39,714 bases of DNA from a virus, in the IMG/VR virus record IMGVR_UViG_3300034190_002502, positions 1-39,714 of that record. One strand, given 5' to 3'. A program made the position numbers and the translations under genes. The stretch's first letter is position 1; every line of letters starts with the position of its first letter. The notes below the pieces were generated by a model. That model made no database searches. It was not told the DNA's origin and saw only the letters and a list, made by a program, of their open reading frames with translations. This document shows positions 7,254-22,496 of the stretch, in pieces.

Positions 7254-7837
7254 TATTTCTTATCCTTAGTTACAGTATATACAAAAGCATTAACATTCAT
7301 CATAGGAGATATTTGGAATATACTTTTATACCTAATCTTACCTTCTACGTTCTTAATCATCTTTGTATACACCTCATAAGCGTCAGCTACAGACACAAAC
7401 TCTTTCTTAATTTGTTTACCTTTACATTCAGGCATTTCAGAGTAGTAAGACCTAATAAATGCATTAGGGTGCGACCCAGTGTGTAGTGACATATAGTTTT
7501 CACCCATTCTCCTCCACAATGTATCCATACCACATAGGCTATAGCCAGCTTTATGTGCCAAGAACATGCCTATCATATCTGATTTGTACTCGTTCTCAGG
7601 TTCATGTGTATTTCCCATAGTGTGACCTAAGATAATATGGCCTATCTCATGACCTATAACTACCGCTAGCTGGTCTCTGTTGTCTATAAAGTCCAGCATA
7701 CCAAGAGTTACGTTAATGCTGTGATAGTCCACCACTTGCTCCTTAGGTATAAAGTCATCAACTATCGGATAGAGTCTAAACAACAACAACCCAACCACTA
7801 ACACCCATAATCTCATATATAAACTTGTCTTAATCAT
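7253..7837 (-). CDS. Membrane-anchored M48-like zinc metallopeptidase
   Basis: A 194-aa protein with one N-terminal membrane segment (about residues 9-21) and the zinc-peptidase signature HEIGH at about 63-67. ENEYKSD at about 81-87 supplies the third ligand Glu of the ExxxD type, and SHPNAFIR resembles the M48 (T/S)HP...R motif. M48 proteases (HtpX, LoiP, Oma1) degrade membrane or envelope proteins. It is shorter than most M48 members. Lying between primase and dUTPase genes, it looks like an early-expressed host-takeover or quality-control factor. Substrate and topology are unknown. Confidence 0.88.
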   Translation of the reverse strand: MIKTSLYMRLWVLVVGLLLFRLYPIVDDFIPKEQVVDYHSINVTLGMLDFIDNRDQLAVVIGHEIGHIILGHTMGNTHEPENEYKSDMIGMFLAHKAGYSLCGMDTLWRRMGENYMSLHTGSHPNAFIRSYYSEMPECKGKQIKKEFVSVADAYEVYTKMIKNVEGKIRYKSIFQISPMMNVNAFVYTVTKDKK

Positions 7838-8603
7838 TAAGATATCTCCCTATTTCTCGTGATGAGTAGAATTTAGGATCTTCTCTACTCTGTATTGTAT
7901 TTATAGACCATCCTTTTGGATACTTCAAGGGAAATCTACGTTTATTTTCTTGTATCTGGTAACCAAGCTGCTTAACTATGTTCTTTGTACCTTTGATTCC
8001 TGCGTCATCACCATCCAACCATACAACAATCTCGTCATATTCGTTTAGTATAGCAGGTACTTCCGTTCTATTCAAATATGTACCAAATAAACAGTACACA
8101 TCACCGTATTCCTCCAACCTAATAGCAGATATATAATCCTCTACAAGAATTAAAGTCTTACTACCGGTTTTAATCTTATACAATTGCTTCTCTCCTATTC
8201 CTAATACCTTCTTTTCTGGGAAAAACCGCCTAGTAACAAAGACAATTTCATTATCCTTAACAACTGGTAGTAAAATACTATCTCCCCAGTCTCCTGTATC
8301 GGCAACATATCCAATCTTATGCTTTCTTATAAGCTCATCAAATACATAGTAACTGTAAAGCCACTTCAACACCTGAGGGCTAAACTCCCTAGGATTCCTC
8401 GTGTGTTTAGGTACATACATGTCTTTACCCATTGTAACAGGTTTGAAGGCTTTAATACCCATCATTGCCCGTCTATGGCTGTCAAAAGACTTGTATATCC
8501 CACACGAATGACATTTATAACCATCTGTGTATTCTGCATAGCAACCTGTTCTATGGCCACCATCGCAGAAAGGACATATACCAATAGATAAGAAATTACT
8601 CAC
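7830..8603 (-). CDS. DNA primase (zinc finger plus TOPRIM, stand-alone)
   Basis: A 257-aa protein like the primase half of T7 gp4. The zinc module is CPFC at about residues 10-13 with CHSC at about 31-34. The TOPRIM core follows: LVEDYISAI at about 153-161 (catalytic Glu) and [10 protein letters not shown] at about 193-202 (metal-binding DxD). It makes RNA primers for lagging-strand synthesis with the separate helicase. The start is GTG 8603, inside the end of csrA, with a weak ribosome site, so translation is probably coupled to csrA. Confidence 0.93.
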
Positions 8604-8769
8604 TTATTTCACTCTGTTTTCTGATATGAATCTCTTCTCTATCTACAGCAACCTCACGAGGAGCACTGACACCTATCACCACTTGTTTTCCTTTGATCTC
8701 GTTAATGACAATCTCAACGTTATCACCAATCATAATCTTTTCACCTATTTTTCTACTTAATAGTAACAT
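8596..8769 (-). CDS. csrA: CsrA/RsmA-type RNA-binding translational regulator
   Basis: A 57-aa protein beginning [15 protein letters not shown], with [16 protein letters not shown] in the C-terminal half. This is the CsrA beta-barrel with the key N-terminal L-x-R/K strand and the conserved C-terminal Arg of the VxREEI segment, both needed for GGA-motif RNA binding. ATG 8769 is chosen because it gives the canonical CsrA N terminus and has AGAGG upstream. It could remodel host CsrA-controlled translation or regulate phage mRNAs. Its 3' end overlaps the primase start. Confidence 0.96.
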
Positions 8770-8771
8770 AA

Positions 8772-9062
8772 TCATCCTCTCCATTCTTTGTTAAGTTTAA
8801 TCAACTCTGCCATCCCTACAAAAGCCGCTTTAACAGACTCATAATCAAAGTCTAGCACATCACAGTCAGTTTGCAAGTCTTTTCCTAAAATATATTCATA
8901 ATCTAAATCTACAACACCAGTTTCCATGATAGCAACAGTACATCTCACTTCACCGTGGATACTCTCATGAGATTGATCTAACTTAAGCTGCTGTAAACCT
9001 GGAGCATCTTTATCAATACTGTAAAAGTATCTATGTAGCATTCTTCTATGTGATTCTAGCAT
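8772..9062 (-). CDS. Hypothetical protein
   Basis: A 96-aa soluble protein with mixed alpha/beta character ([22 protein letters not shown]) and a helical C terminus. No family is recognised. It sits two bases after the dNTP diphosphohydrolase-like gene and two bases before csrA in the operon. Confidence 0.7.
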
Positions 9063-9063
9063 A

Positions 9064-9699
9064 CTATTTTCCTTTTTGTTCTTTTATTGTTAGTTCAAGC
9101 ACTGCTAAGATATTCCACGCTACTGCTGTCAAATGACTTAACCCTGTATCATCATCTATTAGTTCACCTGTCTGGTGTTTAAGTAAATGTCTCATCATAG
9201 CATCAGTGTATCTACTAATGCCGTTCTCTGCGTGACTCCAACCATGGTCTGTATACTTAGTAGCACCAAATGTACCCAACTCACTAACAGCTAACAAAGC
9301 GTTACTAAAGTCTCCTAATACTAGTCCTGGTCTAACTTTACCAGCGTCTAGCTTAGCACCTAACTCATGTTGATCTAACCCATAAGAATCAGATTCTGCT
9401 GCTTCAATATGTGCTGCTCTTGATTTAATTAGGTTATCAAGATCTACCTCATCCATATACTTCCTCTTAGCGTCCTTTAGGGCTTCATTAGGTAGTGGGT
9501 AACATTCGTCACTGTCTGCATCTAAATAAGATCCTGTTGGACAAAGCCCCTTACTTATATAACCAGATGGTGCACCTACTATATGTGGCTTACCAAAACA
9601 TTCCTCTTCTGTCTGTAATGCTTCTACTATATTACGTTCACTTACTTTCTTATTATACTCATCTAACTGTCTTTGTTGATGTTCACTATAGTGTCCCAT
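9064..9699 (-). CDS. dATP/dGTP diphosphohydrolase-like protein (MazG-related, DUF5664 type)
   Basis: A 211-aa protein. Its C-terminal 110 residues contain GAKLDAGKVRPGLVLGDFSN, a helix with ELGTFGATKYTDHGW, and SRYTDAMMRHLLKH with DDDTGLSHLTAVAWNILAVLEL. These are the helical metal-binding motifs of the phage dATP/dGTP diphosphohydrolase family. The N-terminal 100 residues are charged and unassigned. Such enzymes recycle host dNTPs or purge particular purine dNTPs. Together with dUTPase it forms a nucleotide-pool module at the front of the replication operon. No PurZ-like gene accompanies it, so there is no evidence for a 2-aminoadenine genome. Confidence 0.8.
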   Translation of the reverse strand: MGHYSEHQQRQLDEYNKKVSERNIVEALQTEEECFGKPHIVGAPSGYISKGLCPTGSYLDADSDECYPLPNEALKDAKRKYMDEVDLDNLIKSRAAHIEAAESDSYGLDQHELGAKLDAGKVRPGLVLGDFSNALLAVSELGTFGATKYTDHGWSHAENGISRYTDAMMRHLLKHQTGELIDDDTGLSHLTAVAWNILAVLELTIKEQKGK

Positions 9700-9895: not shown

Positions 9896-10080
9896 TTGAT
9901 ATCTTTGTGTTATTTATTTTAAGCATACTATATAATATAACTCAGTGCCTTCGTTATCTGCATTCCTGTTCTTTCATAAGTAAACTTATTCAAACATAAA
10001 CACAAACTTCCAGTTCATTCAAGCTAAAGCTTAATCATATGTCTCTGTTCATTCAGTCACTTTGTTCCTTCATATGTAAG
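9896..10080 (-). repeat. Hub cassette, copy A (inverted homologue of 19321-19499)
   Basis: Read on the minus strand, this stretch aligns over its whole length with the plus strand at 19321-19499. Shared exact blocks in the same order are ATGATTAAGCT, AGCTTGAATG, AAGTTTACTTA, AACAGGAA, TATTATAT and AACACAA. It begins about 15 bases after the -10 of P1-minus and ends just before P2-minus. A seven-pair hairpin (10019-10034) recurs in copy B with a different loop, which points to function as RNA. No shared protein-length frame is present. It may be a leader RNA, a small RNA, an operator array or an origin. Confidence 0.85.
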
Positions 10081-10095
10081 AACCCTCTGAAATGC

Positions 10096-10124
10096 AGTAT
10101 ACTGAGTTTTAAAACATTTGTCAA
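10096..10124 (-). promoter_or_regulatory. Sigma70 promoter P1-minus, upstream of cassette A
   Basis: On the minus strand, TTGACA (10119-10124), a 17-bp spacer and TATACT (10096-10101). It transcribes cassette A first and then reads toward P2-minus and the replication genes. The arrangement matches P1-plus in front of cassette B. Confidence 0.85.
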
Positions 10125-10167
10125 CCCCCTATTTTGAAATTAAATGCAAATTAATGTAAATAAACCT

Positions 10168-10195
10168 TTGACATCCTGCAATCTTGTGTTATAAT
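10168..10195 (+). promoter_or_regulatory. Sigma70 promoter for the small-gene/lysozyme operon
   Basis: TTGACA (10168-10173), a 16-bp spacer and TATAAT (10190-10195), about 35 bases before the first ATG at 10228. It is divergent from P1-minus. A TTAACTTAACT stretch just downstream (about 10200-10210) may be an operator. Confidence 0.88.
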
Positions 10196-10227
10196 TAGGT
10201 TAACTTAACTAAAAGGAGGTTTTAAAC

Positions 10228-10464
10228 ATGTACAATGATCTTAGTGATTTAACAGTAGAAGAAATGTTGTACCTGAAAGATGAATTAAACGAAGCTTATG
10301 AAGAACTTATTAAGAAACAAAATGAGTGGTTAGAGATGTGTAACGGTTTGCGTAATGAAATGTATGCACGTTCTGCTGACCTTAAAGCAGAGGAGGAGAA
10401 AGCAAAGAAAGCTAGAGAAGCTGATTATGATTATTTGTATGAAGCTAACAACAACTTACATTAA
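10228..10464 (+). CDS. Hypothetical coiled-coil protein
   Basis: A 78-aa, highly charged helical protein rich in Glu, Lys and Ala, with heptads over most of its length. A near-perfect AGGAGG lies about ten bases upstream, so strong early translation is expected. It is the first gene of the plus-strand accessory operon. No family is recognised; small coiled-coil products of this kind are often host-takeover factors. Confidence 0.75.
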   Translation: MYNDLSDLTVEEMLYLKDELNEAYEELIKKQNEWLEMCNGLRNEMYARSADLKAEEEKAKKAREADYDYLYEANNNLH

Positions 10465-10477
10465 AAAAGGAGAGTTT

Positions 10478-10552
10478 ATGTGGTATGGTGTGTTTTGTAT
10501 AGTATTAACGCTAGGCAAGGCTTATGTTGATTTTCAAGCGGGGGTTTTATGA
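10478..10552 (+). CDS. Putative 24-aa hydrophobic micro-protein
   Basis: ATG at 10478 is preceded by AAGGAGAG at good spacing. The 24-residue product is hydrophobic (MWYGVFCIVLTLGKAY). Its TGA overlaps the next ATG (ATGA at 10549-10552), typical of translational coupling. It could be a membrane micro-protein or only a coupling device. Confidence 0.45.
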   Translation: MWYGVFCIVLTLGKAYVDFQAGVL

Positions 10553-10830
10553 GAGTAGTGTCATGTCAGAAATACGAGAAGCAAATGGGTGAGGATGGTG
10601 TAAGTCATCTTGTGCAGTTTGCAGAGCTTGAATCAGATCTTGAAGTACTAGAGGAGGTGTATGAGATAGGTCAGGTGGTAGGTATTGAGTTTCCTACACC
10701 AAGCAGAACAATTAGTATAGTAGGCGAGGTTAAAGGTTTTGAGTACACTATGGATGTATTTGATGATGGTGTTTACGCTGGCCCTTACGTAGCTTGTACC
10801 CTATATATAGAAGAGGTTGATTATGATTAA
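10549..10830 (+). CDS. Hypothetical protein
   Basis: A 93-aa acidic protein, mostly beta-like (IEFPTPSRTISIVGEVKGFEY). No family is recognised. It is coupled by ATGA to the upstream micro-ORF and overlaps the lysozyme start by eight bases. Confidence 0.75.
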   Translation: MRVVSCQKYEKQMGEDGVSHLVQFAELESDLEVLEEVYEIGQVVGIEFPTPSRTISIVGEVKGFEYTMDVFDDGVYAGPYVACTLYIEEVDYD

Positions 10831-11536
10831 GAAGATATTAGATTTTTTATTTAAAAAGCAACAAAAGTCCATACCTGAGAGGATAGAAGAAACAAAGGAG
10901 TTGCTTAAAAAGCCTAAGAAAGTGTATAAAGACCAAGTGAAGGGGGTACATGAGGATGGGTTGCAACGTGTATCTAAGAATGGATTAGCTGACTTAGTAC
11001 ATTCAGAAGCCATTACAACTAAGAAGTATAAAGATAGTGCAGGTGTTTGGACTATAGGCATAGGTTTTACACAAGCTGTAGTTAAAGGACTTAATAGACG
11101 TCCAGCTAAGCATGAAATGGAGCTTGATGAAATCTTTACTATATATAAGAGAGGTATTGAGGTTTATGCAGACGGTGTACGTAAGATGCTTAAAGTTAAA
11201 GTAAGTCAACATATGTTTGATGGGTTAGTTAGCTTTGCTTATAATATAGGTATAGGTGGTGCTAGAAAGTCCTCATTAATTAGAGCTATCAATAAGGGTG
11301 TTACTGATGAAAAGACACTGAAGAGCCTATTAATGCGTTGGAACAAGGTGCGAAAGAATGGTAAGCTTGTTACATCTAAAGGACTTATCAATAGACGTAA
11401 GAAAGAAGCAGCTGTTATGTTCGAAGCTAGGTATAGTAATAAGAAGATGGTGGGTAGAGTTATACCAGTGGGTAAGAACAAACCATTACGTAATAGTAAG
11501 AAGGCATATAAGATTGACCTTAACGAATATCTATAA
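10823..11536 (+). CDS. Endolysin, GH24 lysozyme (T4/P22-type muramidase)
   Basis: A 237-aa enzyme cutting the MurNAc-GlcNAc bond of peptidoglycan. The catalytic triad fits E-x8-D-x5-T (Glu62, Asp71, Thr77) in HSEAITTKKYKDSAGVWT, and the C-terminal GLINRRKKEA matches the GLxxRRxxE motif of the family. The N-terminal 50 residues are basic and helical, without a clear signal peptide or SAR anchor, so export probably needs the holin. ATG 10823 (SD AGAGG) is preferred to TTG 10817. It is encoded about 9 kb away from the holin gene. Confidence 0.93.
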   Translation: MIKKILDFLFKKQQKSIPERIEETKELLKKPKKVYKDQVKGVHEDGLQRVSKNGLADLVHSEAITTKKYKDSAGVWTIGIGFTQAVVKGLNRRPAKHEMELDEIFTIYKRGIEVYADGVRKMLKVKVSQHMFDGLVSFAYNIGIGGARKSSLIRAINKGVTDEKTLKSLLMRWNKVRKNGKLVTSKGLINRRKKEAAVMFEARYSNKKMVGRVIPVGKNKPLRNSKKAYKIDLNEYL

Positions 11537-11546
11537 GGATAGCATG

Positions 11547-11861
11547 ATGAATGAAGCATTACAAAAAGAAATAGAAGAGCTGGGGTTTGTAGTTAACCCA
11601 GAGCACCCAGACCCAACACCTGGGTTGAAGCTTATGAAATATGGGTACATACCTACAGACGATGTTATACCTATGATTAAGAATATAAAAGAATGGTATC
11701 CACCTGGTTGTGTGGTTGCTATATCAGATGATGGGTTTTTCATGGATAAACCTATTGCCGGTGTTAACGTAGTTGGTATGTATAAACTTAGAAGTTACAA
11801 TGCATGGAGAGCCTGGAGAAGTGTGCAGTTAGAAGTGTTATTTGAACCTTTAGGAGAATAG
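11547..11861 (+). CDS. Hypothetical protein
   Basis: A 104-aa protein beginning MNEALQKEIEELGFVV, with AAGGA seven bases upstream (ATG 11544 is the alternative). It contains PGLKLMKYGYIPTDD and a Trp/Arg-rich segment (NAWRAWRSVQLEV). No family is recognised. Confidence 0.7.
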   Translation: MNEALQKEIEELGFVVNPEHPDPTPGLKLMKYGYIPTDDVIPMIKNIKEWYPPGCVVAISDDGFFMDKPIAGVNVVGMYKLRSYNAWRAWRSVQLEVLFEPLGE

Positions 11862-11862
11862 A

Positions 11863-12144
11863 ATGGGTGCTAAATTAGTAACAGGTAGAAATTCGGATTA
11901 CTCTTTACAGAGTAAAAGAAAGACAATTCTAGATAAACTAGAGGATAATAGAACAGTTACCGGTGAGATATTGTGTATATCATGCGAAGCTTCTAATTTA
12001 ATTCAAGAAATAAGGCCCGTCACTGTGTCAGACGGGTTTAAAGAGAAAAAGGTAGTAGAATTAGATACTTTGTACTGTAATCTATGTGAATATATGGTGC
12101 TAGATGACAAAGAAACTATCTTTTTACGAAATAAGTTAAAATAA
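11863..12144 (+). CDS. Zinc-ribbon-like hypothetical protein
   Basis: A 93-aa protein with two CxxC knuckles, CISC at about residues 38-41 and CNLC at about 72-75, compatible with one zinc ribbon. No further domain is recognised. It starts two bases after the upstream stop in the accessory operon; DNA, RNA or protein binding is possible. Confidence 0.7.
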   Translation: MGAKLVTGRNSDYSLQSKRKTILDKLEDNRTVTGEILCISCEASNLIQEIRPVTVSDGFKEKKVVELDTLYCNLCEYMVLDDKETIFLRNKLK

Positions 12145-12157
12145 TTCATTTATTTCC

Positions 12158-12185
12158 TTGCTTTTTCCTGGTGGTTGGCTATACT
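12158..12185 (+). promoter_or_regulatory. Possible internal sigma70 promoter
   Basis: TTGCTT (12158-12163), a 16-bp spacer and TATACT (12180-12185) in the 78-base gap before the gene at 12223. Moderate match only. Confidence 0.45.
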
Positions 12186-12222
12186 TACAATATAAGATAA
12201 ATTAACCGCTAGGAGAAACATC

Positions 12223-12423
12223 ATGAATACATTAAATATAGCTAGAAAGACAATGAATTCAAGTAGTCAAGTTAAATTATTAGTAGCTTTTGAACAATTC
12301 AGTGGTAATGAGTTCTTAAATGAGAAAGTAGTTGATTTTACATATGATGCTAACAGTTTTGGTGTTGTATTTACAGATGGGTCTGTATTAGTTAGTAATC
12401 AGAATGGTTTTATAGTAAGATAA
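12223..12423 (+). CDS. Hypothetical protein
   Basis: A 66-aa protein with an Asn/Ser-rich N terminus and beta-strand character (SFGVVFTDGSVLVSNQNG). AGGAG precedes the ATG at good spacing. No family is recognised. Confidence 0.65.
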   Translation: MNTLNIARKTMNSSSQVKLLVAFEQFSGNEFLNEKVVDFTYDANSFGVVFTDGSVLVSNQNGFIVR

Positions 12424-12447
12424 TCGTAAACTAAACGGAGATAGGCA

Positions 12448-12651
12448 ATGATTACTTCATCAGAGAGAATAAGAGCAATACACGCAACACGAGTAGTTAT
12501 ATTTATCTTAGGGTTATTAGCAATATACACAGAAAGTCCATTTAGCGACATCTGTGCTAGCTTGAGTTTAGGAATTTGGTTGTGGCAGGCACAATTAGTA
12601 CATTTTGAATTGAAGTTAATAGAGAAATGGAGAAAGAGACATGAAGTATAG
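12448..12651 (+). CDS. Small membrane protein, two predicted segments
   Basis: A 67-aa protein with hydrophobic segments at about residues 15-28 and 36-50 and a basic C-terminal helix (EKWRKRHEV). It overlaps the next gene by 11 bases. No family is recognised. It could support lysis or modify the inner membrane. Confidence 0.6.
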   Translation: MITSSERIRAIHATRVVIFILGLLAIYTESPFSDICASLSLGIWLWQAQLVHFELKLIEKWRKRHEV

Positions 12652-12898
12652 AATATTATTCGTTATATTCTTTGTAGTGGTGTTCTTAAGTGACTCACAT
12701 GCAATGAGATGTAGCAGGAAGTTAATACAAGTGGGCGACTATGTGTCGAAGATGTTTGCCCATTGTGGTACACCATTACACGCTATGCGTGATATAGGTA
12801 GAAATGGCGATAAAATAGTGTACATATACAAGCAGAATGGCAGAAATCAAGTGATTGTCACAAGAGACAACGTAATTATATCAATGAGGAGTGAATAA
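12641..12898 (+). CDS. Secreted DUF2845-like protein
   Basis: An 85-aa protein with a signal peptide (about residues 1-21, basic start then IFFVVVFL, ending SHA). The mature part starts MRCSRKLIQVGDYVSKMF and continues with AHCGTPLH, resembling the RC...L(V/I)xxGD...CGxP pattern of DUF2845, a periplasmic family of gammaproteobacteria. Two Cys could form a disulfide. It is unusual in a phage and may be host-derived, acting in the envelope of infected cells. The function of the family is unknown. Confidence 0.7.
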   Translation: MKYRILFVIFFVVVFLSDSHAMRCSRKLIQVGDYVSKMFAHCGTPLHAMRDIGRNGDKIVYIYKQNGRNQVIVTRDNVIISMRSE

Positions 12899-13113
12899 TG
12901 CAGCAATCATACATAAACAAGGCTACAATTGGACAAGCTAGCAATATGGCACATGCTGAGTACTTAATAGAGTCAGAAGCGGTGAGAAGGGTTATTGGTT
13001 TGGAGAGGTATATGCATAAAAGAGTGCCTGTGTTAGTTAAATTACTAACAGAAATTCAAGAGATTAACGAACTAGAGGCTGTTTGTACTAAGCTTAAAAG
13101 GGGTAAGTTATGA
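12898..13113 (+). CDS. Hypothetical protein
   Basis: A 71-aa helical protein, with ATG overlapping the upstream TAA (TAATG) and a 4-base overlap with the next gene. No family is recognised. Confidence 0.65.
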   Translation: MQQSYINKATIGQASNMAHAEYLIESEAVRRVIGLERYMHKRVPVLVKLLTEIQEINELEAVCTKLKRGKL

Positions 13114-13352
13114 GTGTTTTCTTACTAACGCTAAATCCTAACACTGAAACTCTACATATATTCAAATGTATGTGTGCGAATGAGGCTAGAGGTATACAGA
13201 AACGTTTAGTTCATGCATTTAGTGAGAGTTTGAGTAATTTCATCATCAGTGATGCTAGCGAGAATCCTGCAATCATGAAATCACAGTATAAGAGCATTAA
13301 AAGATACACATATGAGCAGAATAGAAGTTATTACGTTAAAAGAGGTGATTAA
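13110..13352 (+). CDS. Hypothetical protein
   Basis: An 80-aa protein beginning MSVFLLTLNPNTETLHIF, then mostly helical and basic. It overlaps both neighbours by one to four bases. No family is recognised. Confidence 0.65.
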   Translation: MSVFLLTLNPNTETLHIFKCMCANEARGIQKRLVHAFSESLSNFIISDASENPAIMKSQYKSIKRYTYEQNRSYYVKRGD

Positions 13353-13645
13353 TGAACAAATTAGACGCTAGTATACGTATGTGTGTTATAGTTGATGCTT
13401 TAGATGAGTTATTATGGGAAGTTATAGACGAAATAGGTGATTTAGAGGACACAGAACACGAATTACAGCCTGTATTGTCTACAATCACAGATATGTATGA
13501 GAGATATGAGCGAGATATACCAATGGATGGGAAATGGAACGGTATGCCTCTAAGTCAACAAATATACGGTGTAAAAAGAGTATCTAAAGAGGTAGATGAT
13601 AGAATTCAAGATAAATTAGGGTTAAAACCCCTTGACAATGACTAA
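13352..13645 (+). CDS. Hypothetical acidic protein
   Basis: A 97-aa acidic helical protein (DALDELLWEVIDEIGDLEDTEHEL). Its last codons contain the -35 box of the next promoter. No family is recognised. Confidence 0.7.
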   Translation: MNKLDASIRMCVIVDALDELLWEVIDEIGDLEDTEHELQPVLSTITDMYERYERDIPMDGKWNGMPLSQQIYGVKRVSKEVDDRIQDKLGLKPLDND

Positions 13646-13660
13646 ATAGTGTACTATTCT
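13632..13660 (+). promoter_or_regulatory. Internal sigma70 promoter
   Basis: TTGACA (13632-13637), a 17-bp spacer and TATTCT (13655-13660), followed at once by TATAAT (13661-13666). The start would fall just before the 39-aa ORF at 13689, re-initiating the distal half of the accessory operon. A small inverted repeat, GGGTTaaAACCC, overlaps its upstream edge. Confidence 0.7.
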
Positions 13661-13688
13661 TATAATATAACCACAAAGGAGAGACATT

Positions 13689-13808
13689 ATGTTTAGACCA
13701 ATCGAAGAACTAGTGAAAGAACATGAAGAGAACATGAAAGCAGCTGATGAAGCTATAGCCTTACTAAAAGAGGCTTTAAAGAGAGGTGAAGAAGATGAGC
13801 TTTCATAA
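13689..13808 (+). CDS. Small acidic helical protein (39 aa)
   Basis: AAGGAGAG precedes ATG 13689. The product (MFRPIEELVKEHEEN and onward) is one long charged helix with heptad character. It follows the 13632-13660 promoter directly and overlaps the next gene's start by 14 bases. No family is recognised. Confidence 0.6.
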   Translation: MFRPIEELVKEHEENMKAADEAIALLKEALKRGEEDELS

Positions 13809-13989
13809 TTGGTATAGTAAGAGTATTGAGAGAATGCACAAGATATACGAACAAGAGAAAGCTGACGAAATCGCAGCACAGAGGTCTAGGGAGGCTATGG
13901 ATAGATGGTTTACCCAGGCCCAGATAAAGGAAGAGAAGGAAAGAATGGCAAAAGAGTATAACGAAGACGAAGACTTATGGGGGATTTAA
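13795..13989 (+). CDS. Small charged helical protein
   Basis: A 64-aa protein (MSFHNWYSKSIERMHK and onward) rich in Glu, Lys and Arg. ATG 13795 is chosen because AGAGG lies eight bases upstream; GTG 13786 is the alternative. No family is recognised. Confidence 0.6.
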   Translation: MSFHNWYSKSIERMHKIYEQEKADEIAAQRSREAMDRWFTQAQIKEEKERMAKEYNEDEDLWGI

Positions 13990-14014
13990 CTTGATTGATA
14001 TAATGGAGGATGAT

Positions 14015-14233
14015 ATGTTTAGTTTAGTATATGAGAACAAACTAAAGCGAGAGCTTGCTAGAAGCTTAGCCATTAGCTCACTAGAGAGGTTTATTGAAGG
14101 AACTGAGAGTTTAGACGACTATAACATGGCAGTAGCTGAGTATGCAGATACATTAACAGAAATATATACTTCTGAAGCCAACCACTTACTTATAGGGACT
14201 GACGATGAAACAAGTGATAACAAAGAGCTATAA
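14015..14233 (+). CDS. Hypothetical helical protein
   Basis: A 72-aa protein beginning MFSLVYENKLKREL. ATG 14015 has GGAGG five bases upstream and is preferred over TTG 13991 and ATG 14003. No family is recognised. Confidence 0.6.
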   Translation: MFSLVYENKLKRELARSLAISSLERFIEGTESLDDYNMAVAEYADTLTEIYTSEANHLLIGTDDETSDNKEL

Positions 14234-14429
14234 ATGGGAATACGAAACTTGTGGTATGGATAACGAGATAGGCATTATCTCAAGAGAAGGGTTTCAACAA
14301 AGGGTGCTAGCAATAGCATCAGGTGAATATACAAGGGCTAATTATGAGCCTACAACGTGGCATTTCCATTGGGATGAAGGTGGAGGAGCTGTACCAGACA
14401 AACTACCAGAAGGATATACTTATGAGTGA
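14205..14429 (+). CDS. Hypothetical protein
   Basis: A 74-aa protein with an aromatic, His/Trp-rich centre (TTWHFHWDEGGG). It overlaps the upstream gene by 29 bases and the next by eight. No family is recognised. Confidence 0.6.
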   Translation: MKQVITKSYKWEYETCGMDNEIGIISREGFQQRVLAIASGEYTRANYEPTTWHFHWDEGGGAVPDKLPEGYTYE

Positions 14430-14619
14430 TATAACAGATAGTATTAAAGAGACAGCTAAGGATATGTATGCAGCGGGAGTAATGGCTGAGAGTGTGTATA
14501 AGAAGCTAATAGAAGACATAGAAAAGAGTAGTGAACAAGTGTTAGCACATGGGGCTACACTAGACAATAGTGGTTGTAGTGGATGTCCTAATAGAGGGAG
14601 CTGTAAGAATGCAGAGTGA
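14422..14619 (+). CDS. Small protein with C-terminal Cys cluster
   Basis: A 65-aa protein (starts MSDITDSIKETAKDMY), helical for 50 residues and ending CSGCPNRGSCKNAE. The three clustered Cys could bind zinc or an iron-sulfur centre, perhaps as a dimer. SD AGGA lies before ATG 14422. No family is recognised. Confidence 0.6.
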   Translation: MSDITDSIKETAKDMYAAGVMAESVYKKLIEDIEKSSEQVLAHGATLDNSGCSGCPNRGSCKNAE

Positions 14620-14755
14620 ATCAAGTAAGAAGCTAATGATATTAATACAGACAGCAGCACGTAAGCTATATACAGATGATGAGATGAGTACACATGATTA
14701 CTTCATATTGATGGATGTAGTGGATAGAATCAACAGACAGGGAGAAGGTGAATGA
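14609..14755 (+). CDS. Small helical protein
   Basis: A 48-aa protein (MQSESSKKLMILIQTAARK and onward) with GGGAG about eight bases before ATG 14609. Its end overlaps the DnaA-like gene by ATGA (14752-14755). No family is recognised. Confidence 0.55.
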   Translation: MQSESSKKLMILIQTAARKLYTDDEMSTHDYFILMDVVDRINRQGEGE

Positions 14756-15030
14756 ACTTATTCGGATGTATAAAGGATGATGCAGACAAGGCAATGCAAG
14801 TGCTTAACCTGAGTATGGATGAGCTTAGAGGAGGCCACAATATCATGTCAATAACACGCAAGAAAGCTATGGTTAGCTGTTATTTAAGGCATGAATGTGG
14901 TTATACACTGTCAGAAATAGCCGATTACTGTCATAAAGACAGGAGTTCTATAGTATATCATGTAAAGAAGTACACAAAAGACTACAATCTTCATGCAAAT
15001 AAACTGATACAATTAACACAAGAAGTCTGA
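14752..15030 (+). CDS. Stand-alone DnaA domain IV-like DNA-binding protein
   Basis: A 92-aa protein whose residues from about 33 onward match the helix-turn-helix domain IV of DnaA: TRKKAMVSCYLRHECGYTLS, then EIADYCHKDRSSIVYHVKKY. This parallels the DnaA layout of basic helix, L/T-x-EI, F/Y-x-x-x-D-H/R-T/S-T/S-V-x-H. The AAA+ and N-terminal DnaA domains are absent. It could bind DnaA boxes to recruit or block host DnaA, or act as a transcription factor. It is the last gene of the accessory operon. Confidence 0.82.
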   Translation: MNLFGCIKDDADKAMQVLNLSMDELRGGHNIMSITRKKAMVSCYLRHECGYTLSEIADYCHKDRSSIVYHVKKYTKDYNLHANKLIQLTQEV

Positions 15031-15049
15031 TATATTCTTGTATACATTC

Positions 15050-15085
15050 ATGTACTTAGGTGAACAGGATGGAGCCTAAGTATGT
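15050..15085 (+). promoter_or_regulatory. Hairpin with GGA motifs in the loop (possible CsrA site)
   Basis: An 11-pair stem (two G-U pairs), 15050-15060 with 15075-15085, closes a 14-base loop holding ACAGGATGGA. Two GGA triplets in a hairpin loop is the classic CsrA recognition form, and this phage encodes CsrA. It lies 20 bases after the DnaA-like gene's stop, in its 3' UTR. It is a candidate only. Confidence 0.4.
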
Positions 15086-15305
15086 AAATAACCAGACACA
15101 GCCAAAGGCTAGTGTAATAGAGTAGATAGAAGGGGACCGAATATCGTACGCTAACCAGCCTCACGTCCGGCTTCGCTGACACTGCTCAAGGTCAAGAGAA
15201 AGGCCCCTGGCCTCCCCCCACCCCGGGGTCTGGAGCTGCTACACCCACAGAGAAACGCGTGGGAGATATCAGAAAAGAGGGGGCGGGTAATTCAAAATAA
15301 AATAA

Positions 15306-15330
15306 GAGTAATACCCTTCGGGTCTTAAGC
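15306..15330 (-). terminator. Possible weak terminator for the 19.1-15.4 kb minus operon
   Basis: On the minus strand a short ACCC-GAA-GGGT hairpin is followed by a T-rich run (ATTACTCTTATTTTATTTT). The stem is only four to five pairs, so the call is tentative. Confidence 0.3.
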
Positions 15331-15404
15331 TAATCCAGGCATCTGATTACTACTCTTCGAGGTAACAGAGCACTGGGGGCAAATCGTGCCTTCAAATGTT
15401 AAGA

Positions 15405-15566
15405 TTAAGTTAAGGTATTTTCGGCACTATACTGTTTAAGGAAGTCTTCTGCACACATTATATGATACAACGTACTATCCATACCACTAGAACCACAAAT
15501 GTACCCTTCTGCATACATCTCTTTACCGTAAGCTATAAGTATCTTTAATAACTCCTCTTTACTCAT
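15405..15566 (-). CDS. Small hypothetical protein (53 aa)
   Basis: Starts MSKEELLKILIAYGKEMYAE and contains GYICGSSGMDS and a Cys near residue 38. Its ATG overlaps the TGA of the upstream membrane-protein gene (15563-15566). No family is recognised. It is the last gene of this minus operon. Confidence 0.65.
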   Translation of the reverse strand: MSKEELLKILIAYGKEMYAEGYICGSSGMDSTLYHIMCAEDFLKQYSAENTLT

Positions 15567-15706
15567 ACTTTGTATCTCTCTTCTATTTCTTTGAGTATCT
15601 TCTTTTCTGCTTTACTAACTCTGTGAGCTATCTTAATAAGCTGCACTGTCTTAACAACATAGTACGATGCTAGTCCAAAACATATTAACACCCATATAAT
15701 TTCCAT
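15563..15706 (-). CDS. Small single-span membrane protein (47 aa)
   Basis: Starts MEIIWVLICFGLASYYVVKT, a hydrophobic N-terminal helix, followed by a basic, amphipathic coiled-coil-like tail. AGGAG lies well placed before ATG 15706. No family is recognised; the architecture suits an inner-membrane micro-protein. Confidence 0.65.
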   Translation of the reverse strand: MEIIWVLICFGLASYYVVKTVQLIKIAHRVSKAEKKILKEIEERYKV

Positions 15707-15717
15707 TCTATTTCTCC

Positions 15718-16014
15718 TTAGTACGCTATGTACTTATCGTTATTGATCACTTCTTGTGCAATTCTCATATATTTTTTGTTTTCTTCCTTTACTAATTCAA
15801 ATCTAGTTGCCATACTAAAATTTTTAAATAATTCGTAGTGTTTAGACTTCTTAAAGTCTTTATTGCCTATCCAACCTTTTAACATACGACAACAACTGTC
15901 AAAAACTTCATCTGAGACAACATTGCTGTCGAATTTATAGTAAATATAAGAATTAACTAAAACGAAGTCTTGTAATCTATTAATCTCATCAACACCTTTC
16001 AAATGTTCTTTCAT
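15718..16014 (-). CDS. Small protein resembling the NAD-ligase Ia-domain hairpin
   Basis: A 98-aa protein. LVNSYIYYKFDSNVVSDEVF then DSCC resembles the YYxxDxPxxSDxxYD segment of the NAD-binding Ia domain of LigA-type ligases. No nucleotidyltransferase core follows, so it cannot be a ligase. Similar short phage proteins exist, but the role is unknown. ATG 16014 is chosen because GGAGGTG stands before it. Confidence 0.6.
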   Translation of the reverse strand: MKEHLKGVDEINRLQDFVLVNSYIYYKFDSNVVSDEVFDSCCRMLKGWIGNKDFKKSKHYELFKNFSMATRFELVKEENKKYMRIAQEVINNDKYIAY

Positions 16015-16046
16015 AGAAACACCTCCTCGCCACCTTATGTCACTCA

Positions 16047-16322
16047 TTACTCATTTTCTCCAACAATATGTAGTCCTCGTACACTTAATCTAGTACCATC
16101 TCTTAATGTAACACTCTCTATCTCTTTTTCAGCTATTGCTAGCGCTCTACCCATTGATGTACATTGTCTATTGTACGTTAAAGATACAATTCCTTTAGTT
16201 ACGGTGATAATAGCATCAGTGGCACCTGCTTCCCATAGAGCATCCTCTAATTCATCGGTTATTTTCTTAATACCTCTTATAGACACTCTAAATTCAAAAA
16301 ATGGATACTGTATATTAGTCAT
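16047..16322 (-). CDS. Hypothetical protein
   Basis: A 91-aa alpha/beta protein (IRGIKKITDELEDALWEAGATD, truncated here), with RALAIAEKEIESV further on. The rhythm suggests a ferredoxin-like fold. GGAGAGGAGAA precedes the ATG. No family is assigned with confidence. Confidence 0.65.
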   Translation of the reverse strand: MTNIQYPFFEFRVSIRGIKKITDELEDALWEAGATDAIITVTKGIVSLTYNRQCTSMGRALAIAEKEIESVTLRDGTRLSVRGLHIVGENE

Positions 16323-16540
16323 TTCTCCTCTCCTTTATGTTTACGGTTAAAATACCTTCTAACGCAATAACTTCTTATAGTACTAATTATAGTAAAGTAT
16401 ATCCCTATTGTAAAGTTCTCTGTCATATTTATATGTATGTCAAATACTGGGAATATAAGGAGTTGTGAGGCCATAGCCACTCCAAACCCTATTAATTGCT
16501 GTATAAGTGTTTCTATCTTCGCTTGTCTCTTAGTCTGCAT
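16319..16540 (-). CDS. Two-span phage membrane protein (DUF7220-like)
   Basis: A 73-aa protein starting MQTKRQAKIETLIQQLIGFG, with membrane helices at about residues 14-32 and 41-57 and ending in IRSYCVRRYFNRKHK. The QTKR-S/A-x-IE start, FPVF(D/G)I middle and (I/V)RSYxxRRxFN end match a short membrane-protein family frequent in phages of Gram-negative bacteria. The function is unknown. ATG 16540 is preferred to TTG 16546. Confidence 0.75.
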   Translation of the reverse strand: MQTKRQAKIETLIQQLIGFGVAMASQLLIFPVFDIHINMTENFTIGIYFTIISTIRSYCVRRYFNRKHKGEEK

Positions 16541-16763
16541 CTCCAATCACCGTTCCCACTTGTTTAATTAAAGTTTGGTTAGCTTTTGTTAGTTTAGCTG
16601 GCTCTAATTGTGTAAGTCTATGATATTCTGCTAAAGCCACCCTATTTACATCAATAATAGGTAACCACTCTCCGTCATATAGATAAAACCTTACATTCTC
16701 TAGCTTAATAGGGTATCCTAGGCCGTGATATATGTATTCTGCCACTTCTTTAGTATTAGACAT
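16530..16763 (-). CDS. Hypothetical protein
   Basis: A 77-aa protein (MSNTKEVAEYIYHGLGYPIK and onward). AGGAG lies eight bases before ATG 16763; GTG 16772 is the alternative. It overlaps the downstream membrane-protein gene by 11 bases. No family is recognised. Confidence 0.65.
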   Translation of the reverse strand: MSNTKEVAEYIYHGLGYPIKLENVRFYLYDGEWLPIIDVNRVALAEYHRLTQLEPAKLTKANQTLIKQVGTVIGDAD

Positions 16764-16998
16764 CGTATTCACTCCTAAATGCGTTTATCTTCTCTTCTAT
16801 AAGCCCACTAACAGCTTGAGAGGCGCTTAAATGGATAGTTACAAGGTCAGTAGCTAATTGTTTTAATGCTGGGTCTACTTCTTCATCCTCTAGGAGTTCA
16901 GCGTACCCTAACAACCCATCTATATAATCATCAAGGGCCCCAATCAAATTAACACTGTCATCTTTCTTATTACCTGGAAACTCTACTATATTAGTCAT
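16756..16998 (-). CDS. Hypothetical acidic helical protein
   Basis: An 80-aa protein with LIGALDDYIDGLLGYAELLE, acidic and helical. An 85-base gap precedes it. No family is recognised. Confidence 0.65.
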   Translation of the reverse strand: MTNIVEFPGNKKDDSVNLIGALDDYIDGLLGYAELLEDEEVDPALKQLATDLVTIHLSASQAVSGLIEEKINAFRSEYDV

Positions 16999-17083
16999 TT
17001 TATAATCCTATTGTAGTGTACTTTAAGTGTATTTTACACCTCAAAACGCCTTTAATCCTAGTATGTTAGGACGTAAAGTATAG

Positions 17084-17515
17084 TTATGATATTCTCCTAA
17101 TCTTAAACCCCATATAGCTTTGTCTCATAGAATTATTAGCTACAGACCCTAAACCACTAGGAAGTATACCCATATCCTCAGCAAATTCCTTAATATTGTA
17201 TATAGTTTCGCTAAACCCACATGGATGTGTCACAAACCATGATTTAACTACTTTTTCTTTCTTTTTCTTCTCTCTAACAAATAAATGTCCTGCTTTCACC
17301 TTATCAGATAACATCTTACCTATATTAAGTGGTACGGTGGCGTCAGTTCCTCCACCTAAGGCGTCTACAACCATGCTCTCGGGGATAACTCGGAATATCT
17401 TAGCACATATGGGGCCTTCTAAAAACTCCGTGTCACCAGCCACACAGGCATCATGAACCATGGTTAATAAAAGCAACATATTTCCATCTTGTGTTAATTC
17501 AGCAACACTACTCAT
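17084..17515 (-). CDS. Putative DNA-binding protein with NUMOD/HTH-like C terminus
   Basis: A 143-aa protein. The last 55 residues (HPCGFSETIYNIKEFAEDMG, then LPSGLGSVANN, then YMGFKIRRIS) follow the P-x-G-x-x-x-x-I-x-N-(I/L)-x-x-F-x-x-x-x-G-L-x-x-S-x-L-x-x-V...GF/W pattern of the small helix-turn-helix modules on phage homing nucleases. No nuclease domain is visible in it, but the GIY-YIG gene is two genes away. A KKKKEK linker precedes the module. Confidence 0.65.
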   Translation of the reverse strand: MSSVAELTQDGNMLLLLTMVHDACVAGDTEFLEGPICAKIFRVIPESMVVDALGGGTDATVPLNIGKMLSDKVKAGHLFVREKKKKEKVVKSWFVTHPCGFSETIYNIKEFAEDMGILPSGLGSVANNSMRQSYMGFKIRRIS

Positions 17516-17516
17516 A

Positions 17517-18497
17517 TTATTTCTCCTTGAAATCTAATTGTAGTTGTTTAATCTCTTCATCTGTACGTTCTTCGTACCCAAATTCTAAATCATTAAAGAT
17601 GTGTGTTAATTCTCTCTTCAAACTTCTCACACCCATCTCACTATCTAATGCTAATTTAATTATAGTATCTTCCTGGTCTTTGTCAAGGTAATCAGGAACA
17701 TTAATACCCATTAATTTTAATTCATTCACTTTACCAGGGAGTAACACTGTATTTAATATAGTTCTCATTGTGTCTTCTGTCAAAACTTCTAATCTAACGA
17801 TATTACTAAGTCTACCTACTAGTTCAGGCATCAACCCGTAATTAATAATGTCTCTATCGGTAATTGTAGTGTCCAACTCTGTTACTTCAGCCTTATGGAA
17901 GCCAATAGACGTTGGTGTGTGCGTTTCTTTCTTTAAATCAGCAAATGCACCGGCTAATACGAAAGACACCTTGCTGAACGCCTTATCGCTCTCTAAGATA
18001 GATAATAAACCAGATTGTATCTGTCTGTTCCAGTTACCTGAGCTTTCAAATGCTTTAGCTAACTTATCAATCTCATCAATAAATACAACTGTCTGATCAA
18101 TAGTACCTTCTAATGAATGATATCCATTACCTGGTTCATCTACAAGTCTTTGGGCATTCTCATAAACCATCTTAAGTACATACTTAGCGTCTTGGTCTGT
18201 TTTACCGCCTGTAGGCTCTAATCTAGTAGCATCAATACAAACTAATGGAAAATCAACAAGTTTCTGTAGTGTCTGCATTAAGAACGTCTTACCAGTACCA
18301 GACTTACCTATCAACATACAACTAGATGTCTGTACATCCGCAGTCTCATCACCATACATAGGAGCTAAGTACTTATAGTAATGAGCCATCTTACTTCTAT
18401 TAACTAAAGATATCAAAACTTTCTTAGCTTCTGTGTGTCCAATAACTAGTTTATCAAATTCAACTAATAACTCTGCATTCGTCCGGTTATGTATCAT
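17517..18497 (-). CDS. ClpX-like AAA+ ATPase without zinc-binding domain
   Basis: A 326-aa protein collinear with the ClpX AAA+ core: VIGHTEAKK, Walker A GKSGTGKT at about residues 64-71, Walker B VVFIDEID at about 137-144, GAFADL, MPELVGRL with the arginine finger at about 229, and GVRSLKRELT as sensor 2. A SIGF tripeptide loop (about 197-200) matches the ClpP-docking IGF loop. The N-terminal zinc domain is absent. The pore-1 GYVG reads GGKT (about 97-100) and the second Arg of the sensor-2 motif reads Lys. It may subvert host ClpP or remodel a protein complex. Confidence 0.92.
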   Translation of the reverse strand: MIHNRTNAELLVEFDKLVIGHTEAKKVLISLVNRSKMAHYYKYLAPMYGDETADVQTSSCMLIGKSGTGKTFLMQTLQKLVDFPLVCIDATRLEPTGGKTDQDAKYVLKMVYENAQRLVDEPGNGYHSLEGTIDQTVVFIDEIDKLAKAFESSGNWNRQIQSGLLSILESDKAFSKVSFVLAGAFADLKKETHTPTSIGFHKAEVTELDTTITDRDIINYGLMPELVGRLSNIVRLEVLTEDTMRTILNTVLLPGKVNELKLMGINVPDYLDKDQEDTIIKLALDSEMGVRSLKRELTHIFNDLEFGYEERTDEEIKQLQLDFKEK

Positions 18498-18514
18498 GGT
18501 GTAACTCCTTTTAA

Positions 18515-18904
18515 TTAGTTATTCACATTTAGTAAGTTCTCTAAACCGTAATTCAATATTTCTTTACTTTCCTTAAGTCTAGCTTCTTCTAAAGTGTTTG
18601 TCAAGGAAATAACTTCGAAACTTATAGCTTTTTCATTTAATGTCTTAGATATACCTGAGTTACCTAGCAAATGGTGGGTACGTCTATTACGTATTAGCCC
18701 ATAACCTATATAAATACCAGAAGGGAATACAGCTTTATACACTCCAATACCTTCCGATAAACCTAAGGCCTTATCATAAGCACTCTTTAACCCTTCTTTA
18801 CCTTCCCGCCACTCTTTATGGTAATTATCTAGTTTATCTTTGTTTTTAACCCTGTAGGCTTTACTATATTCTTTCATGTAAGCTTTTCTATCAAAGCCAG
18901 TCAT
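18515..18904 (-). CDS. GIY-YIG endonuclease-like protein
   Basis: A 129-aa protein. The core starts GVYKAVFPSGIYIGYG (GVY at about residues 54-56, YIG at about 65-67), with Arg at about 74, Glu at about 112 in LKESKE and Asn near the C terminus, as in GIY-YIG nucleases. The first 40 residues (YMKEYSKAYRVKNKDKL and onward) are a basic helix seen in phage homing endonucleases. It may be a free-standing homing nuclease. It starts within the stop of the upstream gene (TAATG). Confidence 0.82.
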   Translation of the reverse strand: MTGFDRKAYMKEYSKAYRVKNKDKLDNYHKEWREGKEGLKSAYDKALGLSEGIGVYKAVFPSGIYIGYGLIRNRRTHHLLGNSGISKTLNEKAISFEVISLTNTLEEARLKESKEILNYGLENLLNVNN

Positions 18905-19149
18905 TATAACACCCTCTCTATAGTATGAACATTATTAATAAGGTCAGCATCTGTTAATTCATGTACAATGTCAAAATACGCCTCGTGTACTGATGGTACA
19001 TCCTTAAAGAAACAAATTAAAGCATGTCCTTTACTTCTATTTACATGTACTTCAAACTGATTACCTATATTACCACTTCCTGCTTCTTCTAATCTATCCT
19101 TAACATTCTCTATATAAACATTCTTAAGTATCACATCAAAATTAAACAT
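18904..19149 (-). CDS. Hypothetical protein, first gene of the ClpX-like operon
   Basis: An 81-aa protein (MFNFDVILKNVYIENVKDRL and onward) with ferredoxin-like alpha/beta rhythm. ATG 19149 has AAGGAG seven bases upstream. It follows the minus promoter at 19180-19207. No family is recognised. Confidence 0.7.
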   Translation of the reverse strand: MFNFDVILKNVYIENVKDRLEEAGSGNIGNQFEVHVNRSKGHALICFFKDVPSVHEAYFDIVHELTDADLINNVHTIERVL

Positions 19150-19179
19150 TCTCAAACTCCTTTTTGTTTGTATATCTTA

Positions 19180-19207
19180 AATATAACACATATTCAGAAT
19201 TATGCAA
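19180..19207 (-). promoter_or_regulatory. Sigma70 promoter for the ClpX-like operon
   Basis: On the minus strand, TTGCAT (19202-19207), a 16-bp spacer and TATATT (19180-19185), about 30 bases before ATG 19149. Divergent from P1-plus. Confidence 0.7.
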
Positions 19208-19278
19208 GGAATTAATTAAAAATAATCAAAATAAACACAAATAGTCATGTTATTCATAGTTTATCCATACTTTATACC

Positions 19279-19307
19279 TTGACAACTTAGTCAGAAGTCA
19301 TTATAAT
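19279..19307 (+). promoter_or_regulatory. Sigma70 promoter P1-plus, upstream of cassette B
   Basis: TTGACA (19279-19284), a 17-bp spacer and TATAAT (19302-19307), a full consensus match. It lies directly before cassette B and about 700 bases before the first structural-operon gene, so its first product is the cassette RNA. A near DnaA-box (TTATCCATA, 19261-19269) stands just upstream. Confidence 0.92.
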
Positions 19308-19320
19308 AACCTTAAGGTTT

Positions 19321-19499
19321 TAAACATATATGAACGAAGTGAATAAACAGAAACAGATGATTAAGCTGTAAGCTTGAATGTCTCAGGACTTTTGGGTTAA
19401 TTTGATTTAAGTTTACTTAATGAAATAACAGGAAAGAGACAATGAAGGAACTGAATTGTATTATATGTTCTTCATGTTAAGAAAACACAAGAATATTAA
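19321..19499 (+). repeat. Hub cassette, copy B (inverted homologue of 9896-10080)
   Basis: It aligns with the minus strand of 10080-9896 block by block: ATGATTAAGCT, AGCTTGAATG, AAGTTTACTTA, AACAGGAA, TATTATAT, AACACAA. It carries the conserved hairpin at 19361-19377 (TTAAGCT/AGCTTGA) with a GTA loop in place of TT in copy A. It is bounded by P1-plus and P2-plus as copy A is by its own pair. No frame of useful length is shared. The role is unknown: leader RNA, small RNA, operator or origin. Confidence 0.85.
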
Positions 19500-20007: not shown

Positions 20008-20484
20008 ATGTTAAGCCTCCTAATAGCTCCAATCACAGCATTACTCGAAAGAATAATACCAGACCCGGAAAAAGCAGCCGAAGCAAAAGCCGAAATGATG
20101 TCTATCATGGTAGAGGCTAACGCCAAAGAGATCGAAGCCAAATCTAAAGTAATTATCGCAGAAGCTAAGGGTGAGTCTTGGTTACAACGTAACTGGAGAC
20201 CTATTATAGCTTTATCCTTTGGTATAGAGACTGTCATTATAACAGCCTTCCAGTTTATTATATTTCCCTTACTTGGGATATTCGGGTTTGAAATACATTC
20301 ACTACCGATGCCAGCTGAGTTATGGTGGGTAAACGGAATATGTATTACAGGATATATAGGTTCTCGAGGATATGAGAAAACTACCAGGATGAAGACGGAT
20401 AAGGACTTATTCGATGCTGCTCGTTCTGTTAACGGGTATTTAACCCAAGAGCAAGTTGATAGGATAAAGACAAATGGATCATGA
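20008..20484 (+). CDS. Holin of the 3TM GTA/phage type
   Basis: A 158-aa protein: IPDPEKAAEAKAEMM, a long Ala/Lys/Glu helix, then SWLQRNWRPIIALSF, and two to three hydrophobic segments at about residues 68-90 and 97-118. The PDPxKAAEA...SWLQRNWRP pattern marks the three-TM holin family first described for gene-transfer-agent release. It permeabilises the inner membrane so that the lysozyme (10823-11536) can reach the cell wall. ATG 20008 fits the family start; its SD is weak (AAGAAG), so lysis timing may depend on the leader. Confidence 0.85.
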   Translation: MLSLLIAPITALLERIIPDPEKAAEAKAEMMSIMVEANAKEIEAKSKVIIAEAKGESWLQRNWRPIIALSFGIETVIITAFQFIIFPLLGIFGFEIHSLPMPAELWWVNGICITGYIGSRGYEKTTRMKTDKDLFDAARSVNGYLTQEQVDRIKTNGS

Positions 20485-20713
20485 AACTTTAGTAATAGCT
20501 AAACAGATAATAGTATATGCACTGGGCCCTATAATGGGTCTTTTTGCGTGGGTAGGTAAGAAGATGCACAAAGAAGTTGAAAACAACAAAAGAGATATAA
20601 ATGATTTAAAGATATCTCACGCTGTGCAAGGATCACAGTTGAAAGACCTCAAGGAAGACGTACACCAAATTAATAAGAAACTCGATAAGATATTGGACAG
20701 AGTAAGTAAATAA
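20474..20713 (+). CDS. Membrane-anchored coiled-coil protein (XhlA-like, lysis accessory)
   Basis: A 79-aa protein with one membrane helix at about residues 8-26 and a coiled coil to the end (LKDLKEDVHQINKKLDKIL). This layout is seen in XhlA-type and other holin-associated proteins. It overlaps the holin gene by 11 bases. A holin partner or antiholin role is inferred from context. Confidence 0.65.
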   Translation: MDHETLVIAKQIIVYALGPIMGLFAWVGKKMHKEVENNKRDINDLKISHAVQGSQLKDLKEDVHQINKKLDKILDRVSK

Positions 20714-20716
20714 CCT

Positions 20717-21169
20717 ATGGGTAGAAAATCCTTGTATAAGAAAAAGTACGCTAAAGACCTAATTAATGGTATGCGACAAAACCCTAAAGCCTCAATCGAA
20801 AGATGTTGTCAGGCCTGGGGAGTAGTACGTTCTACGTATTATGCTTGGATTGATAAATACCCCGAGTTTGCCAAGGCAGCTGAAATAGGTGAGCGAGATT
20901 ATCAAATAGCCTTCCACGATTTAATGGTAGATAATGCCACAGGAGAAGTTAGAGGTAATGCTGGTGTATTAGCACTTATGGCTAAGAACATCTTAAAGTG
21001 GTCTGATAAAGTAGAGATAGAAGCTACAGGGCCAGAGAAAATAAATAGAATTGAAATAGAAGTGTTACAAGATAAGCGTTCGGAGTTCGAGAACAGCGAA
21101 CAAGACCTTTTAAATCACATTGAAATTGAAGATGGTGAGTATATAGAGCATGACAACAAAGAAGATTAG
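20717..21169 (+). CDS. terS: Terminase small subunit
   Basis: A 150-aa protein with an N-terminal helix-turn-helix (ASIERCCQAWGVVRSTYYAW, then KYPEFAKAAE) of the terminase small-subunit type, a helical oligomerisation core and an acidic tail (EIEDGEYIEHDNKED). It recognises the packaging site and stimulates the large subunit, whose gene it overlaps by 20 bases. Confidence 0.9.
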   Translation: MGRKSLYKKKYAKDLINGMRQNPKASIERCCQAWGVVRSTYYAWIDKYPEFAKAAEIGERDYQIAFHDLMVDNATGEVRGNAGVLALMAKNILKWSDKVEIEATGPEKINRIEIEVLQDKRSEFENSEQDLLNHIEIEDGEYIEHDNKED

Positions 21170-22475: not shown

Positions 22476-22496
22476 AGACGGAATAAGAATAAAACT

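Follow-up and report, generated by a model that had tools for sequence, protein, structure and literature searches.

A paired leader RNA element at the heads of the two long operons in a group of phages, with a possible role in processive antitermination

Two inverted, diverged copies of one noncoding element of ~130-150 nt lie in the IMG/VR virus record IMGVR_UViG_3300034190_002502, a stretch of 39,714 bases (38% GC) that we analysed at its full length and call the window. One copy heads a replication operon, the other a late operon, and these are the two long operons of the phage. That the element is a structured RNA is well supported: the same pairing with the long operons recurs in three phages, the two copies within a phage have stayed alike while the phages have drifted apart, and the copies carry RNA-type structure. 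Together these features suggest that a paired, folded RNA serves as a signal helping host RNA polymerase to read very long operons, and that this type of element has not been described before.

Two copies at the heads of the long operons

An earlier note on this DNA had described two inverted, diverged copies with six colinear blocks, and we recover both where it had placed them:

9930..10080, minus strand: copy A, leader of the replication operon (alignment to copy B; 3' boundary by comparison with the copies in the related contigs L143 and L283)
19321..19466, plus strand: copy B, leader of the late operon (alignment to copy A)

The copies align locally with a score of 126, against a mean of 22.1 (sd 2.75, maximum 33) in 1000 dinucleotide shuffles, a comparison that the note had itself proposed, and blastn finds them 80% identical over 127 bp (E = 5.5e-23). 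Six exact blocks of 7-12 bases keep their order at offsets of -6 to -4: ATGATTAAGCT (11), AGCTTGAATG (10), TAAGTTTACTTA (12), AACAGGAA (8), TATTATAT (8) and AACACAA (7). The conserved element stops ~10 bases past the last of its three hairpins, at about 9930 in copy A and 19466 in copy B. A covariance model built from the pair finds exactly these two copies in the window and no third, so the two short operons carry none, as the note had held. Tiny leader open reading frames (ORFs) in both copies, 10 codons each, were dropped as candidates because relatives show none. An inverted resemblance also links the divergent promoter regions of the two short operons (10130-10236 versus 19141-19233; score 31.5 against 17.6, sd 2.9), and in the window the whole divergent control region, short-operon promoters included, looks as though it had been duplicated.

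The pair in related phages

By DNA sequence the element matched no GenBank phage record; three degenerate DNA patterns run against IMG/VR gave chance matches or L143's own copies only and led to no other contig, and no family in Rfam 15 was at or above its gathering threshold. Relatives were reached by protein searches with terminase, portal, head and polymerase, and their leaders were recognised by synteny and tested afterwards; the covariance model of copies A and B reached no significance on them (best, the L143 late copy, E 0.17). Four contigs are close relatives: L017, L023 (5.6 kb), L143 (28.5 kb) and L283 (31.5 kb), with compared proteins mostly 60-73% identical and the large terminase (TerL) of L143 52% identical. 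L017 begins within TerL and stops short of the leader, and L023 holds the late copy only, so that seven leaders were compared: the pairs of the window, L143 and L283, and the late copy of L023. L143 and L283 have the same operon layout as the window, and the conservation in related phages to which the note had looked is found in both, with a homologous pair at the same two places:

L143 (record G032), minus 8420-8240 and plus about 16970-17168: leader pair, replication and late operon heads (synteny, self-comparison)
L283 (record G060), plus 11979-12090 and minus 1667-1545: leader pair, replication and late operon heads (synteny)

Within a phage the two copies are far more alike than their shuffles (z 20.8 in the window, 16.3 in L143 and 15.2 in L283), whereas copies from different phages compare at z -0.8 to 8.8. 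With within-phage values so far above those between phages, the two copies of one phage evolve in concert while diverging between phages. Such concerted drift is as expected if both sites must fit one shared, changing partner, and it points to a phage-specific partner, as for nut sites, rather than to a conserved polymerase surface alone, as for put sites.

When records of relatives further away (portal or terminase ~30-48% identical) were compared with themselves, promoter-like repeats came up and no such pair, and a scan of bacterial genomes found distant portal relatives only. One record, G036 (that of contig L159), has four noncoding repeats of 85-100 bases at about 5245-5345, 7954-8039, 10528-10615 and 11058-11161; these seem to be promoter/leader segments of small minus-strand genes that occur repeatedly, and they have no relation to the element.

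RNA structure

The predicted fold consists of three short hairpins, with a further one in copy B:

10019..10034, minus: hairpin 1, copy A, UUAAGC-UUUA-GCUUGA (RNAalifold of the pair)
19361..19377, plus: hairpin 1, copy B, UUAAGCU-GUA-AGCUUGA (RNAalifold of the pair)
9976..9989, minus: hairpin 2, copy A, AUAAG-UUUA-CUUAU (one compensatory pair versus copy B)
19407..19420, plus: hairpin 2, copy B, UUAAG-UUUA-CUUAA (one compensatory pair versus copy A)
9937..9957, minus: hairpin 3 (GA/GA), copy A, AUAAC-GA-AG(GCA)CU-GA-GUUAU (two compensatory pairs versus copy B; covariation; motif enrichment)
19439..19459, plus: hairpin 3 (GA/GA), copy B, ACAAU-GA-AG(GAA)CU-GA-AUUGU (compensatory pairs; covariation; motif enrichment)
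19329..19345, plus: second GA/GA hairpin, copy B, UAU-GA-AC(GAA)GU-GA-AUA (motif scan)

A hairpin at the position of hairpin 1 is present in all seven leaders. Hairpin 3 has one architecture in six of the seven copies, with 3-5 outer pairs, GA facing GA, 2-3 inner pairs and a loop of 3-4; the L283 replication copy needs a single bulged base to form it. The facing GA dinucleotides would form tandem sheared G-A pairs. Across the seven copies four of the five outer pairs have changed on both sides, and the covariation score lies above all slid registers and is reached by none of 500 shuffles, so the covariation check that the note had asked for comes out positive for this hairpin. Folding of the pair alignments likewise beats column shuffles in each of the three phages (p 0.016, 0.001 and 0.026; Fisher 5e-5); the number of double changes does not by itself reach significance in this test.

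The strict GA/GA hairpin motif occurs nine times in the seven leaders against 0.33 expected (maximum 3 in 1000 shuffles), a density given as ~50x that of the genomes (7.4 per kb in leaders, about 0.1 per kb in genomes). When other dinucleotides were put in place of GA as a control, the motif occurred 0-1 times, and with one copy per phage only the enrichment is still seen (p 0.003 and 0.001). Because the motif was defined on these very copies, its enrichment cannot serve as an independent test, nor are the copies of one phage independent of each other. Clusters of two GA/GA hairpins are nearly confined to element leaders in the 3.3 Mb of fetched sequence. The shuffle test, the conservation in relatives and the covariation together support the note's proposal of a paired regulatory RNA or leader.

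Promoters, terminators and neighbouring features

The strong promoters that the note had called P1 and P2 are found as matches of 11-12/12:

10124-10096, minus: P1 promoter-like site before copy A, TTGACA-17-TATACT, 11/12 (promoter-pattern match)
19279-19307, plus: P1 promoter-like site before copy B, TTGACA-17-TATAAT, 12/12 (promoter-pattern match)
9888-9860, minus: P2 promoter-like site after copy A, 11/12, outside the element (not conserved in relatives)
19570-19598, plus: P2 promoter-like site after copy B, 12/12 (similar P2 in L283 and L023, none in L143)

The total count of promoter-like sites in this region is no higher than chance, and it is the 11-12/12 sites that stand out. A TTGACA-type P1 precedes all seven copies, with irregular spacing before the L143 replication copy. 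P2 follows the late copies of L283 and L023; because it is missing after both L143 copies and the L283 replication copy, it is not part of the element, and the note's unit of P1, cassette and P2 is not supported as such.

The 77-base direct terminal repeat of the window (1-77 and 39638-39714), probably the assembler's circular overlap, leads us to read it as a closed circular assembly, a complete phage of about 39.6 kb, laid out as follows:

1..9699 and, via the circular junction, 39608-37717, minus: replication operon, ~12 kb, read from copy A (primase, M48 peptidase-like gene, dUTPase, helicase, PolA (family A DNA polymerase), exonuclease)
20008..37683, plus: late operon, ~18 kb, read from copy B (holin, small and large terminase, portal, major head protein, others)
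10228-15030, plus: short operon (lysozyme and many small genes)
19155-15405, minus: short operon (AAA ATPase)
37693..37710, both strands: bidirectional intrinsic terminator at which the replication and late operons converge, the sole strong one found in the window

Judged by size and by the families scanned, none of the window's ORFs looks like the gene of a large phage RNA polymerase, and host polymerase is accordingly assumed to read both long operons. The late copy of L143 is separated from the holin gene by a strong intrinsic terminator, GCCCCTTTATTGGGGC-CTTTTTTC (L143 7409-7432; G032 17439-17462), which transcripts from P1 would have to cross. Between copy B and the holin gene the window has only a weak terminator-like site, at 19812-19831.

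A second conserved noncoding stretch lies between the late P2 and the holin gene at 19844-19990 (plus strand), with the pattern GCCGTTACG..CATTCRTGCA..GGAAC..CCCGACAAGGA..CTATAAAGTGCC. It has model matches in L283 (L285 1269-1125, minus) and in L023 (683-815), a weaker resemblance by eye in G007 (about 815-905), and no Rfam family. In L023 a tRNA-Met(CAT) gene (876-950), absent in the window, stands between this second noncoding RNA and the holin gene. The region between the two convergent short operons (15031-15404) is GC-rich and noncoding, with several hairpins, and its fold does not clearly surpass shuffles (z -1.5 and -1.1).

Discussion

What might a paired leader RNA do for a phage that has two very long operons? 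Our preferred answer, to which we give about an even chance, is that the element acts in cis on the nascent transcript by processive antitermination or anti-polarity, like lambda nut or HK022 put. A long transcript would start at P1 with the element at its 5' end, and the element would fold into hairpins 1 and 2 plus a GA/GA hairpin or two as it leaves host RNA polymerase. In this form the RNA, probably together with a partner encoded by the phage, would then alter the polymerase such that it reads through terminators or resists Rho across the 12-kb replication and 18-kb late operons. We favour antitermination because the element lies near the start of the transcript, is limited to the two long operons, is folded and evolves in concert, which is the layout of put and nut, and because a strong terminator separates the late copy from the holin gene in L143.

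Several observations weigh against antitermination. Strong intrinsic terminators were sought inside the window's two long operons and none was found, and an antiterminating polymerase would run through the strong terminator at the operons' shared end, unless the effect fades. A perfect TTGACA-17-TATAAT promoter lies inside the late operon at 22447-22475 (plus strand), overlapping or just after the end of the large terminase gene and just before portal, and it is conserved in L023 (3428-3456) and L143 (9949-9977); with this promoter and the P2 after copy B, some late transcripts would be without the element. On the structural side, hairpin 1 was picked after the fact, the L023 copy is without the GA/GA motif, and folds of single copies show no clear gain in stability over shuffles in five of the seven leaders (the exceptions are the L143 late copy, z -7.35, and the L143 replication copy, z -2.1).

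The closest parallel is HK022 put: it has two similar copies, one after PL and one after PR, and their effect on polymerase extends over at least 10 kb (PMC9378689). Like putL and putR, the copies described here are similar, diverged, inverted and folded RNAs downstream of the promoters of opposite long operons, and presumably read by host polymerase (PMC9378689). Two similar copies, each downstream of a long-operon promoter, are found in L143 and L283 as well. The differences are also clear: put is ~70 nt with two long stem-loops (PMC9378689), whereas the phage element is ~130-150 nt with short hairpins and GA/GA loops, and put serves two early operons rather than a replication and a late one. 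The phage element diverges between relatives in concert, which suggests a phage-specific partner, whereas put acts without a protein. Antitermination by put runs through the beta-prime zinc-binding domain. In sequence, none of the seven copies exceeds z 2.2 against putL or putR, for which we used two 66-nt stretches of NC_002166, an inverted and diverged pair near 28.2 and 29.5 kb that has no annotation in that record; the same kind of comparison likewise recovers this probable put pair of HK022 as an inverted, diverged pair.

The nut sites (boxA-boxB) on which lambda N acts are similar in that two RNA copies with small hairpins stand in two leaders, and among lambda, P22 and 21 the boxB copies of one phage share a specificity for N that differs between phages. 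Best matches of the copies to boxA (YGCTCTTA or TGCTCTTTA) have 2-4 mismatches, no better than shuffles. Lambda boxB is a hairpin bound by the arginine-rich N protein; the leaders have hairpins and small basic ORFs are present, and no N-like protein was identified. A 61-aa basic protein (net +6) encoded in the replication operon at 38851-39036 (minus strand) has a 36% identical counterpart in L283 and is a weak candidate for an RNA-binding partner. Lambda Q and qut offer a likeness in late-operon control near the promoter, but qut is DNA, a site within the late promoter (PMC6606751), whereas the phage element is a transcribed leader downstream of P1, at both operons. The element thus appears not to be a member of put, nut, qut or any Rfam family, although its mode of action may resemble that of put or nut.

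It is also possible, if unlikely, that the leaders are RNA operators through which a phage regulator co-ordinates translation or attenuation of both operons, leaving processivity unchanged. Concerted evolution fits any shared RNA-binding partner, and the GA/GA hairpin of the L143 replication copy overlaps what is probably the first gene's start codon. Hairpin 3 of the window, however, is ~550 nt from holin in copy B and ~110 nt from the first ORF in copy A, too far for direct translational control, and in the L143 late leader an intrinsic terminator intervenes.

We think it distinctly improbable that the copies act as DNA, either as paired replication origins or as operators for a phage protein downstream of P1, and the note's alternative of paired origins or operators loses ground here. 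Inverted symmetry around the replication genes would suit such sites, as would a small protein encoded at 14752-15030 (plus strand) that by inspection resembles the DnaA C-terminus (no Pfam match; orthologues in L143 and L283) and a DnaA-box-like TTATCCATA at 19261 (plus strand), just upstream of copy B's P1. That box, however, lies outside the element and is not seen at copy A, and the copies are always on the transcribed side of P1. Helices are also somewhat better conserved on the sense than on the antisense strand (hairpin 3, 29 versus 26 of 35 cells; hairpin 1, 48 versus 46 of 48), a small difference.

There is little to recommend a role in RNA stability or processing, with the hairpins as 5' protective structures or RNase sites of two very long messages: they are 5'-proximal on the two longest transcripts, but such hairpins need neither concert in sequence between copies nor a special GA/GA motif. 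A recent duplication, with gene conversion keeping the copies alike and the element itself serving no shared function, could explain why the window's similarity also spans P1 and, weakly, the divergent short-operon promoters, but is very improbable given that the pair recurs in three phages, that the similarity in L143 and L283 does not reach beyond the element and ends just after hairpin 3, and that hairpin 3 carries compensatory changes.

To our knowledge, only a small number of RNA elements act in cis to reprogram RNA polymerase; among those of phages that need no protein, HK022 put is the chief example. We tentatively suggest, at something short of an even chance, that the pair represents a processive-antitermination RNA of a new class, with tandem G-A hairpins as its core and a phage-encoded partner that reads it and co-evolves with it, by which apparently lytic phages hold host RNA polymerase on both the replication and the late operon. 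The natural sequence variants and co-drifting pairs would then amount to a natural experiment for finding that partner and would also test how short RNAs make polymerase processive, and the element would explain how 12- and 18-kb operons are expressed by host polymerase alone in this phage group.

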